Below are positions 8,841 to 63,006 of a DNA stretch of 64,000 nucleotides, piece by piece; positions within the stretch are counted from its first letter, which is position 1; each line of letters begins with the position of its first letter. The DNA is taken from contig CAMYMN010000007.1 of assembly GCA_947259395.1 (NCBI GenBank), forward strand, positions 3,241-67,240. Direction: 5' to 3'. Both the position numbers and the translations under genes were made by a program. Below the pieces are notes generated by a model. That model was not told where the DNA came from. It searched no databases and saw only the letters and a list, made by a program, of their open reading frames with translations. The stretch is from an uncultured Gammaproteobacteria bacterium (lineage in GTDB: Bacteria; Pseudomonadota; Gammaproteobacteria; Arenicellales; JAANXG01).

Positions 8841-8887
8841 CAGATCCCGGCCGCTTGGTATAAATTAAGTATACTGTCTCCGGAATT
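8841..8887 (+). repeat. Family C element, right half only
   Basis: CAGATCCCGGCCGCTTGG, then AAATTAAGTATACTGTCTCC, then GGAATT. It lies just upstream of the lipoprotein gene at 8904. The left half is missing. Confidence 0.8.
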
Positions 8888-26077: not shown

Positions 26078-26554
26078 TTATCGGCCCTTGTTGTGATCGT
26101 CGATGTTGATCGGTAATGCCGTGGTGCACTTGATCCGCTCCATGGCGAAACTGGAAGATACGTTGGACAATTCAATCCGGCTGATCAGTTTTTTATAGAA
26201 TTGGTCGTAGGCGTCGATGCTGCTGACCGCGACCTTCAGCAGGTAGTCGACTTCACCGCTCATGCGATAGATCTCCAGTACTTCAGGCAGCTCGCTGACG
26301 GCGGGGGCGAATCGGTCGATCCACTTCTTGCTGTGTTTATCGATCTTGATATTCACAAACACAGTCACATCGGCGTTGACCTTGTTGGCATCCAGAATCG
26401 CGACCCGGCCCTGAATGACGCCGGCTTCCTCGAGCCGTCGTATGCGCTTCCAACACGGCGCCGTGGAAAGGTGGACGCGTTGTGCGATTTGTTTGACGGT
26501 CAGGCTCGCGTCCTGCTGTAACAGGCGCAGAATTTCTTTATCGACGGCATCCAT
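26078..26554 (-). CDS. Lrp/AsnC family transcriptional regulator
   Basis: A 158-residue regulator. The N-terminal helix-turn-helix reads MDAVDKEILRLLQQDASLTV then KQIAQRVHLSTAPCWKRIRRLE, followed by GVIQGRVAILD, the hinge and the RAM/AsnC effector domain (VLEIYRMSGEVDYLLKVAV). Such regulators bind amino acids and form octamers. The start at 26554 is used; the frame extends to 26620 without homology. It is divergent from the DsrC-like gene, sharing a 157-bp AT-rich intergenic region with a Lrp-box-like palindrome, so it probably regulates itself and that neighbour. Confidence 0.9.
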   Translation of the reverse strand: MDAVDKEILRLLQQDASLTVKQIAQRVHLSTAPCWKRIRRLEEAGVIQGRVAILDANKVNADVTVFVNIKIDKHSKKWIDRFAPAVSELPEVLEIYRMSGEVDYLLKVAVSSIDAYDQFYKKLISRIELSNVSSSFAMERIKCTTALPINIDDHNKGR

Positions 26555-26626
26555 AGAATCTGGTATCGCGTTTGGTGGTATGAGCGATATATATTTATCC
26601 CATATCAGGGTTGTTTTCAATAAAAA

Positions 26627-26640
26627 AGAATTATTATTCT
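26627..26640. promoter_or_regulatory. Lrp-box-like palindrome
   Basis: AGAATTATTATTCT has perfect AGAAT/ATTCT half-sites 4 bp apart and resembles the Lrp consensus with one extra central base. It sits between the Lrp-type regulator and the DsrC-like gene. The site is seen; binding is inferred. Confidence 0.5.
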
Positions 26641-26711
26641 ATATATACTGGTTTTAAAGAAAATATTTGTTATCCTGCTCGGTAGAATCAATGACGTAAT
26701 TGGAGACGACA

Positions 26712-27047
26712 ATGAACCTGGCAGTTTCTGACACAATCGATGCAAATCAGTTTGATGAGTACGGCTTACTCAAAGACGCGCAAGCTTGGTCCGAGCCGCT
26801 TGCCAAAGCGATCGCAAGTGACCTCGGCGTGGGTACATTGACCGACGCCCACTGGCTAATCATCTATACCCTGCGCGACCACTACACGCGATATGGCACC
26901 CCCCCGGTGATGCACCGCGTGTGCCAGGAAGCGGGGATCGAACGTCGACAGGTGAACGAGCTGTTTGGTTACTGCCTCAACGCCTGGCGTGTGGCGGGGC
27001 TGCCCAACCCCGGTGAAGAAGCGACGTCGTATTTAAGTAATATGTAA
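26712..27047 (+). CDS. DsrC/TusE family protein lacking both C-terminal cysteines
   Basis: A 111-residue protein with DsrC/TusE features: DEYGLLKDAQAWSEPLAKAI, LTDAHWLIIYTLRDHY and the C-terminal arm AWRVAGLPNPGE, which matches the family arm AxKxAGLPKP. In DsrC two cysteines on this arm carry sulfur, and TusE keeps the last one. Here the first position is Trp92 and the last is Glu103, so neither is present; Cys71 and Cys88 lie outside the arm. It therefore cannot work as a standard sulfur carrier and may be a regulatory variant (RspA-like). ATG 26712 has GGAG 6 nt upstream. Confidence 0.8.
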   Translation: MNLAVSDTIDANQFDEYGLLKDAQAWSEPLAKAIASDLGVGTLTDAHWLIIYTLRDHYTRYGTPPVMHRVCQEAGIERRQVNELFGYCLNAWRVAGLPNPGEEATSYLSNM

Positions 27048-48659: not shown

Positions 48660-50423
48660 ATGTCGGAGCGCGCTCAACGAAAATTAGTAGCCATAGTCGC
48701 GGCGGACATAGCGGGCTACTCGCGCCTCATCGGTATGGACGAGGAAGGTACGCTTCGCGATCTTCGTGCGCATCGAGCCGAATTAATTGACCCGCTGTTT
48801 TCCGAGCATGGCGGTCGGATTGCTAACACCGCCGGTGATAGCTTGTTGTTAGAGTTTGCGAGCGTCGTAGATGCTGTTCGGTGTGTGCTCGCAATGCAGT
48901 GCGGGATGGCTGAGCGCAATACCGAGATCGATCAGGACAAGCAGATCCTATTCCGCGTCGGAATCAATGTCGGTGACGTAGTTGCCGAGGGTAACGATCT
49001 GCTCGGAGACGGCGTGAACATTGCTGCGCGTGTTGAATCGCTTGCCAAACCCGGGGGCATGGCCATTTCTGATGACGCTTATCGCCAAGTTCGAGATCGC
49101 CTCGACATCTCCTGGAGTGACGGCGGTGAATACGAGGTTAAGAACATTGCCCGCCCAGTGAAGGTGTGGCGCTGGGCGCCAGATGAGCCGCACAAAGATG
49201 CCGTCGCGGAAGCCGACGAGCAACCTTTATCACTCCCCGACAAACCCTCGATCGCAGTGCTGCCGTTCGACAACATGAGTGGTGACCCAGAGCAGGAGTA
49301 CTTCGCGGACGGAATCACTGAAGACATTATCACCAGCATGTCCAAGGTCTCCAGCTTGTTCGTGATTGCGAGAAACTCCACCTTTACCTTCAAGGGTAAG
49401 CCGGTCAAGGTGCAAGATGTCGGTCGGGACTTGGGCGTGCGCTACGTACTAGAAGGCAGCGTTCGCAAGGCTGGCAGCCGAGTGCGGGTGACAGCCCAGT
49501 TAGTGGACGCACTAAATGGCCAGCATCTTTGGGCGGAACGCTATGACCGAGACTTGGATGATATTTTCTCTCTACAGGACGAACTAAGTCTTAAAATCGT
49601 TACCTCGGCGGCTGTGCGACTGAGCGAGCAGGACAGTCACCGCCTGATGCAGCGCAATACCGACAACGTCGATGCCTATGATCACCTGCTGCGCGGCCGG
49701 GATCATTTGCTAAGGCACACGCCCGAAGCAAACGCGCTGGCACTCGACCATTTCGAACGGGCCGCGGCACTCGATCCAGGTTATGCCGCGCCCTATGTGC
49801 ATCTGGCCGAAACCCATTTGCAGCAGATGCAGCTCGGGTGGAGCCCCGACCCAACCGACCAGTTGGCCCATGCACTAGAGTGCGTAAAGCGAGCCATCGC
49901 CGTCGACGACGAATACGCACCCGCCCACGGCGTCCTGGGGCAGATCTATCTGTGGCGGAAGGATTATGAACGCGCCGTTATTGAGGGAGAATGCCGCGTC
50001 GCGCTCAATCCAGGCGATGCCGAAGGTATCGCGACGTTGGCTATGACGCTCGTGTTTGCAGGCGAACCCGAACGGGCTCTCGATGCCATGGCTCGGGCCA
50101 TGCGCCTCGATCCGCAATACCCGTTTTGGCACCTGCATGTGGTCGGGCTCTGTCACTTCGCCCTCGAGCGCTACGATGACGCCATTGCTGCATTTCAGCG
50201 CTGCATCGTCAGGAACCCGGACTCCATGCCGCCGCACATGGTGCTCGCGGCCGCCGCCGCTCTGGTCGGCGATATGCAAACCGCAACGTCGGAATTGGCA
50301 GAGAGTAAACGGCTGAATCCCGATCTCAGTCTCACTTTCGTCAGCGAGCAAATACCCTACCGACGCGCCGAGGACATCGATCGTCTGGTCGCAGGCCTGA
50401 AAAAGGCCGGTCTGAAGGAGTAA
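48660..50423 (+). CDS. Class III nucleotide cyclase - TolB-like - TPR protein (copy 1)
   Basis: A 587-residue protein. Cyclase domain about 8-175: metal ligands Asp16 (AADIAGYS) and Asp60, Asp117 in LLGDGVN, Asn120 and Arg124. The Lys that reads adenine is Asn56 (GGRIANTAGD). A TolB/FlgO-like domain follows (about 197-320: KPSIAVLPFDNMSGDPEQEY, GVRYVLEGSVRKAGSRVRV, LWAERYDRDLDDIF). The C-terminus is TPR repeats (ALDHFERAAALDPGYAAPYV). No membrane segment is seen. The nucleotide made is uncertain because of Asn56. A family C element begins 2 nt after the stop. Paralogues at 56220 and 61246. Confidence 0.88.
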   Translation: MSERAQRKLVAIVAADIAGYSRLIGMDEEGTLRDLRAHRAELIDPLFSEHGGRIANTAGDSLLLEFASVVDAVRCVLAMQCGMAERNTEIDQDKQILFRVGINVGDVVAEGNDLLGDGVNIAARVESLAKPGGMAISDDAYRQVRDRLDISWSDGGEYEVKNIARPVKVWRWAPDEPHKDAVAEADEQPLSLPDKPSIAVLPFDNMSGDPEQEYFADGITEDIITSMSKVSSLFVIARNSTFTFKGKPVKVQDVGRDLGVRYVLEGSVRKAGSRVRVTAQLVDALNGQHLWAERYDRDLDDIFSLQDELSLKIVTSAAVRLSEQDSHRLMQRNTDNVDAYDHLLRGRDHLLRHTPEANALALDHFERAAALDPGYAAPYVHLAETHLQQMQLGWSPDPTDQLAHALECVKRAIAVDDEYAPAHGVLGQIYLWRKDYERAVIEGECRVALNPGDAEGIATLAMTLVFAGEPERALDAMARAMRLDPQYPFWHLHVVGLCHFALERYDDAIAAFQRCIVRNPDSMPPHMVLAAAAALVGDMQTATSELAESKRLNPDLSLTFVSEQIPYRRAEDIDRLVAGLKKAGLKE

Positions 50424-56219: not shown

Positions 56220-58109
56220 ATGGATGAGAACAAGGTTGAGCGAAGACTTGCCGCGATCCTCCATGCCGACGTAGTTGGTTACAGTCGGCTGATGGGGCAA
56301 GACGAAGTGGGAACGCACCGCGTCCTAAGCGAGTCGCTTCATGCTATTACCGCCTTGATCGAGAGCCACGGAGGCAAGGTGATGAACCTGGCCGGCGATG
56401 CGGTGTTGGCGGATTTTCCCAGTGTGGTAGAGGCTTTGGCGTGCGCGGTGGATATCCAGCGTGACCTCAAATCTCGAAACGAGAATCGGCCGGATGACCG
56501 CAAGTTCGAGATGCGCATCGGACTAAATTTGGGTGATGTCATCGTCGACCACGACGACATCTATGGCGACGGCGTCAATGTAGCGGCGCGGCTGCAGGGT
56601 GTCGCGGAACCGGGCGGTATCTGCATTGCTCGCGCCGTATACGAGCAGGTCAAAGGCAAGATGGAGCTTGACTACGAATCCCTTGGGGACCAAGACGTCA
56701 AGAACATCGTCGAGCCGGTGGCTGCCTACCGGGTTCTTCTGGATCCCGAGTCCACCGGTGCGACGATCGGACAGAAAAAAACCCAACATAGGCGCTGGCG
56801 ATTGGCTCCAGCAGCCATCGCCGGTGTCACGATCGTCGCTTTGCCCGCGATATTTTTCTGGAATTACTACCTGCCTTCGTCGCCCGCTGGGGTCGAACCT
56901 GATTCACAAAGTCTTGAGGCGCCGAAAACGCCAGCAAAACCCTCTATCGCGGTGTTGCCGTTCAAAAACTTAAGCGCCGACTCCGGGGATGAGTATTTTA
57001 CCGATGGAATTACCGACGACATTATTACCGACCTGTCGAAATTTCGCGATTTGTTTGTCATCGCCAGCAACACCGTGTTTACCTACAAGGGCAAATCGGT
57101 CAATGTTCAGGAGGTAAGCCGGGAGCTGGGCGTACGCTATGTATTGGAGGGCAGCATACAAAAGGCCGGAGAGAAAATACGCGTTAACGTTCAGCTCATC
57201 GATGGCGCTAGCGGCCACCATCTTTGGGCCGAGCGCCTGGTTCGGGGCTCCGATGATTTGTTTGCGCTCCAGGACGAGATTGTAAGAACGATCGTCGCGA
57301 CCATGGCGACAAAGGTCGATGCCGTGGAGCGCGAGCGTATCATGCGCAAGGGTACCAAGAGCCTGCAGGCCTACGACTATGTATTGCGTGGCCGGGAGTA
57401 TCGTTCGCGCAATACCCGTGCCGCAAACGCCGAAGCGCAAAAATTATTCAGGAAAGCGATCGAACTCGATCCGCGCTATGGTGCCGCCTATGTCGACCTC
57501 GCCTGGTGCTATTTTAATACCGTAACGTTCGGCTGGTCGCAGGCTCCCAGCCAGGCGTTGGAACAGGTCCACGAGCTGGCCCAAAAGGCCTTGAGCCTCG
57601 AGGCATCCGACTACGGTGCGTACCGTTTGCTCGGGGTGGTGTATATCAAATGGATGCAATACGATCTCGCTATAAAAAATCTGACGCGGGCGCTGGAGCT
57701 GAATCCGAATGATGCCGACAGTCATGATGCTATGGGTGCGGCGCGGCTTTATTCCGGCCAGTCGCAGGCGGCGACCGAGTCGTTGGAGACTGCGATTCGC
57801 TTCGATCCCAGCCCGCGCCCGGATGTGTTCATACATCTGGGGCTCGCGTATTACCTGGCAGGACGCTACGACGATGCCATTGCAACGTTGCAACAAAGTC
57901 TGGAACGCACGCCAAATCTCACGGCCCACCACGTAATACTGGCCGCCGCCCACGCGCAAGCCGGCCACACCGCAGATGCCGAACGTGCTGCCAACAAAGT
58001 TCGTCGGCTCGATCCCTTTTTCGAGGTCGACTCGTTTGGTACTGCGTTCCGCAATGCCGCAGATCGCGACACGATCGCCGCAGGGTTGCGTAAAGCGGGA
58101 CTCAAGTAG
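56220..58109 (+). CDS. Class III nucleotide cyclase - TM - TolB-like - TPR protein (copy 2)
   Basis: A 629-residue protein. Cyclase domain about 8-175: Asp17 (HADVVGYS) and Asp60 for metals, Asp117 (YGDGVN), Asn120 and Arg124. The adenine-reading Lys is Asn56 (GGKVMNLAGD), as in copy 1. Unlike the other two it has a membrane segment after the cyclase domain (APAAIAGVTIVALPAIFFWN, about 200-219), which would put the TolB-like and TPR parts in the periplasm. The TolB-like part reads KPSIAVLPFKNLSADSGDEY and VRYVLEGSIQKAGEKIRVNV. TPR repeats follow. It is convergent with a CNMP-binding-domain gene 29 nt downstream. Confidence 0.88.
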   Translation: MDENKVERRLAAILHADVVGYSRLMGQDEVGTHRVLSESLHAITALIESHGGKVMNLAGDAVLADFPSVVEALACAVDIQRDLKSRNENRPDDRKFEMRIGLNLGDVIVDHDDIYGDGVNVAARLQGVAEPGGICIARAVYEQVKGKMELDYESLGDQDVKNIVEPVAAYRVLLDPESTGATIGQKKTQHRRWRLAPAAIAGVTIVALPAIFFWNYYLPSSPAGVEPDSQSLEAPKTPAKPSIAVLPFKNLSADSGDEYFTDGITDDIITDLSKFRDLFVIASNTVFTYKGKSVNVQEVSRELGVRYVLEGSIQKAGEKIRVNVQLIDGASGHHLWAERLVRGSDDLFALQDEIVRTIVATMATKVDAVERERIMRKGTKSLQAYDYVLRGREYRSRNTRAANAEAQKLFRKAIELDPRYGAAYVDLAWCYFNTVTFGWSQAPSQALEQVHELAQKALSLEASDYGAYRLLGVVYIKWMQYDLAIKNLTRALELNPNDADSHDAMGAARLYSGQSQAATESLETAIRFDPSPRPDVFIHLGLAYYLAGRYDDAIATLQQSLERTPNLTAHHVILAAAHAQAGHTADAERAANKVRRLDPFFEVDSFGTAFRNAADRDTIAAGLRKAGLK

Positions 58110-61245: not shown

Positions 61246-63006
61246 TTAGTCCGGCAGGCCCGCCATACTGAGGCCGCCGACGAATTTCTCCAAAATTTCC
61301 GGAGATGAATAGGGCAGGGTTCGTCTGAGTACGGACCCGCAAATATCCGGTTGCAGTTCTCTAAGTTGCTCCAGCACCGCCTGCGCCTTGGTTATTTGGT
61401 CACGTCGGGCCAGCGCGGCGCACTGCAGCCGGTAAGCGGAGATGAAGCCGGGCCGTAGCCGCGTACACTCGAGTGCACAACGCTCGGCCTCCGCATAGCG
61501 GTCAGCCAAATAGTGCGCGAGGCCAATCGACGCGATGAATATGACATTGTGCGGGTCTTTAGGACTCAGTCGCAGCGCTAGATTGGCATCGGCAATCGCT
61601 TGTTCGGAAAGCCCAGCATGTGCCTTCGCGAACGCGCGCCATCCGTAAGCGGCAGCAAAGTTCGGACTCAGGTCTATGGCTTTGGTGTATTTCGATATGG
61701 CTTCATCGATGTTGCGGTTCATCGCGTGCATATAGCCAAGGGCAATATGCGCCCACGCGTCTTGGTCATCGAGATCATAGGCCTTTTGCGCTAGCTTCCC
61801 CGCCCTCTCGCGTACCGACGCAAAGTCCGTCCAACCCATATGGCTCGCAAACAGCAACGCGAACGCCAGCATGCTGTGTGCCGGGCCGTATTGCGGATAC
61901 TTTTTCGTTGCTGCCTCGAGCAGCGCAATGGCTTTCGCGTTATCGTCCCTGGTCATGTGCCAGAAAGCGGAAACCGCTTGCATTACCATGTCCCATGCAT
62001 CCAGATCGTGTTCGGAACGACTTCGAGCACGTAAGCCTTCTGCCGCGAGGATCGCCGGCTCGATTGCGCCCGCGACGTCTTCCGTTATTTCGTCCTGCAC
62101 CGCAAATATGTCTGTCAGATCGCGATCGTATCGCTCCGCCCACAGATGTGCCGAGGTCTGCGCATCGATCAACTGGGCAGTGATTCGCACCTTGTTCGCT
62201 GCCTTGCGCACGCTACCCTCGAGTATGTAACGTACGCCAAGTTCCTCCGAGACTTGACGAACGTCCACGGCTCTACCGCGGTAAACAAACGAAGAATTCC
62301 GGGCAATAACGAACAGCCAGTGTATTCGTGAGAGATTGGTAATAATGTCTTCGGTGATGCCATCGGAGAAATACTCCTGCTCCGCGTCGCCGGACATATT
62401 GTCAAAAGGCAGCACCGCAATGGACGGCTTATCCGGCAGCGCGAACGGCTCTTCGCCAGATGTGGTCGTCGCCGCTTCGCCGGCGTTCGACCATTGCCAC
62501 ACCCGCACCGGACGCGTGATGTTTTTCAATTCCTGATCACCGGTATCAATGAACGAGGCGTCAATGCTTCCGACAATATTATCGTGTGCGGTGCCGGAGA
62601 TGGTGATGCCCCCGGCTTCGCCGATTTCCTGCAGCCGAGCCGCGATATTCACGCCATCACCGAAGATGTCGTTACCCTCAACAATCACATCGCCCAAGTG
62701 GATGCCGATGCGGAAGCGGATGGCGTAATCGCCCGCGACGTCGGCATTGCGTTCCGCCATGCCCTGCTGCATAGCAATGGTGCATGCAACGGCCTCGACG
62801 ACGCTGGGAAATTCCAGCAGCAAACCATCGCCCATCGTCTTGACAATGCGTCCGCCGTGTTCGGCGATCAGCGGGTCGATCAAATCGGTGCGGTGGGCGC
62901 GCAGGGCGTTGAGCGTGCCGCCCTCATCTTCACCCATAAGGCGTGAATACCCAACCACATCGGCGGAGACGATAGCCGCCAATCTGCGCACAGTGCTTTC
63001 GGACAT
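61246..63006 (-). CDS. Class III adenylate cyclase - TolB-like - TPR protein (copy 3)
   Basis: A 586-residue protein with the same layout as the gene at 48660. The cyclase domain carries a full canonical set: Asp16 (SADVVGYS), Lys56 (GGRIVKTMGD), Asp60, Asp117 (FGDGVN), Asn120 and Arg124, so adenylate cyclase activity is likely. The TolB-like part reads KPSIAVLPFDNMSGDAEQEY and GVRYILEGSVRKAANKVRIT, and TPR repeats follow (AISKYTKAIDLSPNFAAAYG). No membrane segment. It is the only one of the three TPR-cyclases that keeps the adenine-type lysine. Confidence 0.9.
   Translation of the reverse strand: MSESTVRRLAAIVSADVVGYSRLMGEDEGGTLNALRAHRTDLIDPLIAEHGGRIVKTMGDGLLLEFPSVVEAVACTIAMQQGMAERNADVAGDYAIRFRIGIHLGDVIVEGNDIFGDGVNIAARLQEIGEAGGITISGTAHDNIVGSIDASFIDTGDQELKNITRPVRVWQWSNAGEAATTTSGEEPFALPDKPSIAVLPFDNMSGDAEQEYFSDGITEDIITNLSRIHWLFVIARNSSFVYRGRAVDVRQVSEELGVRYILEGSVRKAANKVRITAQLIDAQTSAHLWAERYDRDLTDIFAVQDEITEDVAGAIEPAILAAEGLRARSRSEHDLDAWDMVMQAVSAFWHMTRDDNAKAIALLEAATKKYPQYGPAHSMLAFALLFASHMGWTDFASVRERAGKLAQKAYDLDDQDAWAHIALGYMHAMNRNIDEAISKYTKAIDLSPNFAAAYGWRAFAKAHAGLSEQAIADANLALRLSPKDPHNVIFIASIGLAHYLADRYAEAERCALECTRLRPGFISAYRLQCAALARRDQITKAQAVLEQLRELQPDICGSVLRRTLPYSSPEILEKFVGGLSMAGLPD

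Follow-up and report, generated by a model that had tools for sequence, protein, structure and literature searches.

The window, by which we mean the whole stretch of 64,000 nucleotides analysed here from an uncultured member of the Gammaproteobacteria, contains a small DsrC-family gene that lies back to back with the gene of an Lrp/AsnC-family regulator (Table 1). The open reading frame that encompasses it spans 26700-27047 on the plus strand, and the likely translation start, as the GGAG in front of it suggests, is the ATG at 26712, which yields a product of 111 residues with the frame intact. The protein matches the Pfam DsrC family PF04358 at 65.4 bits (cut-off 24.9). It scores 51.5 bits against the NCBIfam model TIGR03342 for the TusE/DsrC/DsvC sulfur relay subfamily, narrowly below the cut-off of 53.5, and 36.7 bits against the TusE equivalog PRK11508, whose cut-off is 191; by profile it is not TusE. 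The top PDB structure matches of an AlphaFold2 model (mean pLDDT 86) are all DsrC, with Z scores of 9.9-14.6, and D. vulgaris DsrC (2v4j_C) gives Z 14.6 and rmsd 2.0 over 99 residues. Both the Pfam match and the fold place the protein in the DsrC superfamily. The divergent neighbour matches AsnC_trans_reg at 74.6 bits; its best NCBIfam match, Lrp, reaches 104 bits, below the cut-off of 233. A sequence-only reading of this DNA had described a DsrC-family gene with particular arm residues and cysteines, divergent from an Lrp/AsnC gene. The regulator gene is real and every sequence detail was right; the palindrome noted between the two genes is weak when taken alone.

Table 1. Features of the divergent gene pair, with positions in the window
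Feature	Position	Strand	Basis or remark
Divergent Lrp/AsnC-family regulator gene	26078..26554	-	AsnC_trans_reg and HTH_24/HTH_AsnC-type Pfam matches; ATG at 26554, ORF open to 26620
Shared divergent intergenic region	26555..26711	.	sequence; 157 bp, 32% GC
Second, imperfect inverted repeat GATATATATTTATC	26586..26599	.	recognisable in 4/5 genomes; chance-level alone
Inverted repeat AGAAT-TATT-ATTCT (AGAATTATTATTCT), possible operator	26627..26640	.	nearly unchanged in five genomes
GGAG, probable ribosome-binding site for ATG 26712	26702..26705	+	sequence; TGGAG or GGGAG kept in 5/5 genomes
DsrC-family gene without arm cysteines, 111 aa	26712..27047, stop included	+	PF04358 65.4 bits; AF2 pLDDT 86; dN/dS ~0.1
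Cys71 codon, first helix (67-74) of HTH-like region	26922..26924	+	Cys in 107/111; AF2 helices
Cys88 codon, just after second helix (78-85)	26973..26975	+	Cys in 88/111
Cys-free C-terminal arm LNAWRVAGLPNPGEEATSYLSNM	26976..27044	+	alignment with DsrC and TusE
Trp92 codon, at upstream DsrC arm Cys position	26985-26987	+	alignment with DsrC/TusE
Glu103 codon, at penultimate DsrC Cys position	27018-27020	+	alignment with DsrC/TusE

The C-terminal arm sets this protein apart. Alignment with the two-Cys DsrC of the same genome (..QACKYAGLPKPTGCV) and with E. coli TusE confirmed that Trp92 and Glu103 stand in place of both arm cysteines. All 111 aligned relatives share the arm pattern W-x-[IV]-[AS]-G-L-[PA]-x-P-G-[ET]-E-[AG]-x-x-[YH], with W92, G96, L97, P100, G101 and E103 invariant; none of them has cysteine at either DsrC arm position, and two have a cysteine at residue 93. 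In four orthologues, 80-88% identical, the arm is unaltered but for a single S to G change at residue 109 in one of them. Between the window gene and its orthologues dN/dS is ~0.1 over the gene, and among the closest orthologues, where computable, arm dN is 0.00-0.02 against a dS of 0.7-1.5. The Cys-free arm is, as these rates indicate, what selection maintains, and the purifying selection on it is strong.

Could the gene simply be a degenerate paralogue, or a sequencing artefact, of an ordinary DsrC or TusE? Apart from the absent cysteines themselves, only the TIGR03342 score slightly below its cut-off speaks for such an origin. The occurrence of the same arm in all 111 members, the low dN/dS with its near-zero arm dN and a separate, well-supported lineage speak against it, and the conservation already refutes this explanation, to which we attach practically no probability. 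A frameshift hidden near the 3' end, which the sequence-only reading had named as one of two findings that would refute its proposal, and a pseudogene are ruled out by the identical arms of the orthologues and by the dN/dS; homologues in the same context were also checked for arm cysteines, and none carry them.

Relatives were collected by a scan of 84,980 species genomes, which returned 164 relatives, of which 80 were kept. One of the two scan patterns lay in the arm, so that arm conservation among these 80 loci is biased, and because the scan partly used the arm a profile search of 369 genomes of the class was made, with a profile that likewise includes it. The profile scores fall into two groups separated by a gap from 87.8 to 67.0 bits, with 38 genomes above the gap, and all 30 of the profile-found members that were fetched, found without the arm pattern, have W..[AS]GL[PA]xPG[ET]EA..Y or its G variant. 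A phylum-wide sample of 398 genomes contained the same arm in the window's own genome and in one other outside the class. PF04358 is matched by each of the 45 family members tested, described genera such as Sedimenticola, Thiocystis, Leucothrix and Thiohalophilus contain members, and none of the viral contigs searched encodes one. In a tree built without the arm columns, and without one very long row, the family is set off from DsrC, TusE and a Cys-less paralogue by a branch of length 2.57 with support of 100/99. The family therefore forms one separate lineage even when the arm is left aside. A weaker relative that falls inside it, L015, is 41% identical to the window protein and ends differently, in AWRIAGLPDVPQA; for this reason the arm is less than fully fixed at the margin of the lineage. 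The Cys-less paralogue (QGGKIAGLPESRRKGGY) belongs to another lineage; at its locus (L149, G000 contig C20, 4161-5234, minus strand) it adjoins a protein matching Cas6/Cmx6 above the curated cut-off.

Where are the cysteines of this protein? Cys71 and Cys88 are the only two, and both lie outside the arm positions, as had been noted from the sequence. In the AlphaFold2 model position 80 falls within helix 78-85 and C88 begins the next helix. Residue 71 is serine in the four family members without C71. The second cysteine alternates between two sites: C88 is found in 88 members and C80 in 25, 22 of the 23 members without C88 have C80 instead, and 110 of 111 have one or the other. This alternation amounts to ~3 changes on the tree and for that reason is suggestive and not a test. 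After DsrC, the next PDB matches of the model are TetR-type helix-turn-helix (HTH) domains, aligned over residues 41-99 with Z up to 5.9 (DsrC 14.6), a value in the range of common helical arrangements. No Pfam HTH family rose above noise, LexA appearing in three of 45 members at E 0.09 and IclR in one at 0.0075, and a PDB sequence search returned no HTH regulators at E up to 10. Extra basic charge in the HTH segment was looked for and not found: the mean net charge is +1.5 in the family versus +5.2 in DsrC/TusE, and DNA binding is therefore not favoured.

The divergent regulator is informative beyond this one locus. Five genomes, from two genera, have the Lrp pair. Within a set of 13 genomes of the same family, an Lrp orthologue of at least 89% identity is present in exactly the five that have a close orthologue of the DsrC-like gene, and the two are adjacent in all five; the other neighbours differ, and none of the four relatives keeps the DEAD-box gene that flanks Lrp on its far side. 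The pairing, whose conservation the sequence-only reading had proposed to examine, thus holds among close genomes, but Lrp is not the general partner of the family: elsewhere the divergent neighbour is a CysB-type LysR or no regulator is recognised, and Lrp as universal partner, being confined to five genomes, is ruled out. A CysB-type LysR gene is the divergent neighbour at 24 of 72 evaluable other loci. The DsrC-like proteins so paired have identities down to 37% and are spread over at least four families, Sedimenticolaceae, Ectothiorhodospiraceae, Chromatiaceae and Thiotrichaceae; two of the six LysR neighbours tested exceed the NCBIfam CysB equivalog cut-off. At many family loci no recognised regulator adjoins the gene. 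CysB is a regulator of sulfur assimilation, and divergent regulators usually control their neighbour, often only that. That two unrelated families of regulator, one of them of the type that governs sulfur assimilation, occupy this divergent position is the strongest clue to function, and the pairing would fit a protein that is itself a regulator or one that is merely regulated.

The second option would make the product a metabolic or sulfur-handling protein under the control of the divergent Lrp or CysB, with C71 and C80/C88 as a new sulfur-binding or redox site. The usual behaviour of divergent regulators, the part of CysB in sulfur assimilation and the frequency of both body cysteines all agree with it, but C71 lies in a helix of the modelled body and not in a mobile arm, and the members with Ser71 mean that a two-Cys reaction is not universal. 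We consider such a protein unlikely, and rank it after the main rival discussed below.

The intergenic palindrome had been likened to an Lrp box. Of 1000 dinucleotide shuffles of the 157-bp gap, 647 contain inverted repeats as good as its best ones or better, so that as an Lrp box the palindrome is by itself at chance level; AGAATTATTATTCT has nevertheless hardly changed across all five genomes that have the pair. A scan of the genome for it found one other exact match, inside an HdrB-like coding sequence, and no regulon.

The distribution of the family ties it to Dsr sulfur metabolism. In the class sample 35 of the 38 carriers have dsrA, as do 82 of the 331 non-carriers (Fisher p = 2e-16, relatedness ignored), and the three carriers without dsrA are assemblies 72-81% complete. 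Among named carriers dsrA exceeds the cut-off in 42 of 46, and 45 of 46 have some DsrAB-like match. The family is hardly met outside genomes with Dsr sulfur metabolism, and as only 35 of the 117 dsrA genomes of the class sample (~30%) have it, it is an accessory of that pathway. Five genes of the DsrC family are present in the window genome, and one of them encodes a separate, complete DsrC with both arm cysteines. The search for dsr genes in this genome that the sequence-only reading had recommended located that DsrC on contig C47, in a dsr cluster with dsrE/F/H-like and dsrMK-like genes; no dsr genes were seen among the window's listed ORFs or the Pfam-scanned neighbours of the gene. A second dsr-like cluster of the same genome (L148, G000 contig C17, 3015-7905, minus strand) contains dsrA (477 bits), an ORF in the dsrB position, a DsrL-like flavoprotein and a DsrC-like protein in which the upstream arm cysteine is present and the penultimate one absent (ELCKLAGLPKPLPSEHDG). 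Many carriers have a second dsrA (G155, G157, G160, G167, G178, G187, G188, G190 and others), and seven of the 12 two-dsrA genomes of the class sample, as read off and with no formal test, carry the family. Two members (L047, 4519-8300, and L048) lie near nirD/L-like, nirJ-like and nirN-like genes, named by eye from the sequence and probably of heme d1 biosynthesis; a linkage of the family to nir genes was set aside, as only two of 80 loci show it.

This distribution also agrees with a docking modulator, in which a DsrC-like surface and the Cys-free arm would occupy DsrEFH, DsrAB, DsrMK or DsrL and tune or block sulfur flux without binding DNA. The near-confinement of the family to dsrA genomes that have a DsrC of their own speaks for it; the AGLPxP core is common to this arm, DsrC and TusE, the arm is under very strong constraint, and the low charge of the HTH segment would be no obstacle. 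On the other hand, the protein is dispensable to most sampled dsrA genomes, it is without the inter-helix residues present in TusE and the DsrC of its own genome, a 7-8 residue insertion (PMC4164917), and docking leaves the regulator pairing unexplained. We regard the docking modulator as the main rival, possible if on the unlikely side.

What, then, might the protein do? We tentatively favour a regulator or adaptor of Dsr sulfur oxidation that responds through its thiols and is not a sulfur carrier, a reading in which our confidence falls somewhat short of even. In this model a lineage of DsrC fold would have ceased to carry sulfur on its arm and taken on a regulatory or adaptor role in sulfur oxidizers that use the Dsr pathway. 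Its body would contain a TetR-like HTH with C71 in the first helix and C80 or C88 in or just after the second, and the redox or persulfide state of these cysteines would depend on reactive sulfur in the cytoplasm or on the sulfur-relay proteins of the Dsr system. We infer that a change in thiol state would then alter how the protein meets DNA or a putative partner; any such binding, and the targets, are as conditional as the redox response itself. The fixed arm (W..AGLPxPGEEA..Y), modelled as a folded C-terminal helix, would serve as a docking or locking element and not as a carrier. Moreover, the divergent promoter region in common with a regulator gene, Lrp/AsnC here and CysB-type LysR in many relatives, would couple the gene to sulfur or amino-acid status. 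The regulator or adaptor reading gains from the arm fixed without cysteine in 111 of 111, from the independent lineage and the co-occurrence with dsrA, from C71 in 107 of 111 and C88/C80 in 110 of 111, from CysB-LysR at 24 of 72 loci and the Lrp adjacency, and from TetR-type HTH domains being the next-best structural matches. It loses from an HTH that is less basic, from Pfam HTH matches at noise level and a weak TetR-like Z, from the many loci without a regulator and from the tendency of a divergent regulator to control its neighbour only. The sensing role that the sequence-only reading had put forward as a possibility may be entertained, as it agrees with the pairing with regulators, the cysteines of the body and the co-occurrence with dsr; the wider proposal that the DsrC fold here serves a purpose other than relaying sulfur on the arm is supported by the fixed Cys-free arm, the selection on it and the presence of a separate two-Cys DsrC. 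A more specific version of the regulator or adaptor reading, in which the mobile arm of a widespread DsrC-derived lineage became a fixed Cys-free docking helix and its thiol pair moved into an HTH body, so as to make a sulfur-status switch of Dsr sulfur oxidation that acts together with CysB- or Lrp-type regulators, seems to us rather doubtful.

The comparison with known relatives sharpens this picture. DsrC (2v4j_C, 1sau, 1yx3) resembles the window protein in its fold, in the D..G...W and AGLPxP core and in its occurrence in dsrA genomes. DsrC proper has two arm cysteines, the penultimate residue among them, and dsr genes nearby; the family has W and E at those positions in all members, and the window gene lies outside a dsr operon. 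In addition, the family arm is lengthened to PGEEAxxYM, the extra inter-helix residues of the own-genome DsrC are absent from the window protein, and the body cysteines C71 and C88 or C80 are a feature of the family and not of DsrC. TusE, of the tRNA 2-thiouridine sulfur relay, has the same fold and AGLPxP core but needs the penultimate cysteine, where the window protein has E103, and belongs to a different lineage. The DsrC-like proteins of SUP05 viruses (the dsrC_1 group) are also without the 7-8 residue insertion, which is thought necessary for DsrC function, but miss only one arm cysteine, the second C-terminal one (PMC4164917). In A. vinosum four extra DsrC-family genes have a role that 'remains to be established' (PMC3368242), and the transcripts of these extra genes shift on pyrite, with published changes of two to four-fold for Alvin_0028, 0345, 0732 and 1508 (PMC11267869). 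DsrC itself is credited with a putative transcription regulation function (PMC7787665, citing Venceslau et al. 2014).

How Dsr-pathway sulfur oxidizers sense cytoplasmic sulfur is poorly known, and additional DsrC copies usually receive a sulfur relay or TusE annotation. Venceslau and colleagues are said to have named in 2014 a Cys-independent group of DsrC proteins RspA, for 'regulatory sulfur-related protein', and to have suggested a role in gene expression. The window protein, a DsrC-superfamily protein without functional arm cysteines, presumably fits that description, and is probably of the RspA kind if the group is so defined. If so, the present analysis would add to RspA a defined lineage, an arm signature, a pattern of body cysteines, the association with dsr and the pairing with CysB/Lrp. 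The lineage offers a concrete candidate regulator on the strength of its fixed Cys-free arm, cysteine pattern, near-confinement to dsrA genomes and recurrent CysB/Lrp pairing, and the signature W..AGLPxPGEEA..Y should help to avoid the mis-annotation of such proteins as sulfur carriers. The fixed Cys-free arm across the lineage and the frequent back-to-back regulator suggest that the protein may act as a sensor or regulator in sulfur oxidation.

Two further features of the window were noted. An interspersed repeat like CCGGGGACAGTATACTTAATT is present in ten copies with up to 3 mismatches, where none is expected by chance, at 8863, 14622, 24290, 26029, 27192, 28189, 30605, 30681, 31468 and 39828; the copies are mostly intergenic, and the repeat is present also in the relative L036. 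The idea that the gene pair is a mobile cassette between such repeats was rejected, as they do not bracket the pair in relatives. Finally, three genes with similar nucleotide-cyclase-like N-termini (of the ..LAAIVAADIAGYSRLMG.. type) lie within 15 kb of one another, at 48660-50423, 56220-58109 and 61246-63006.
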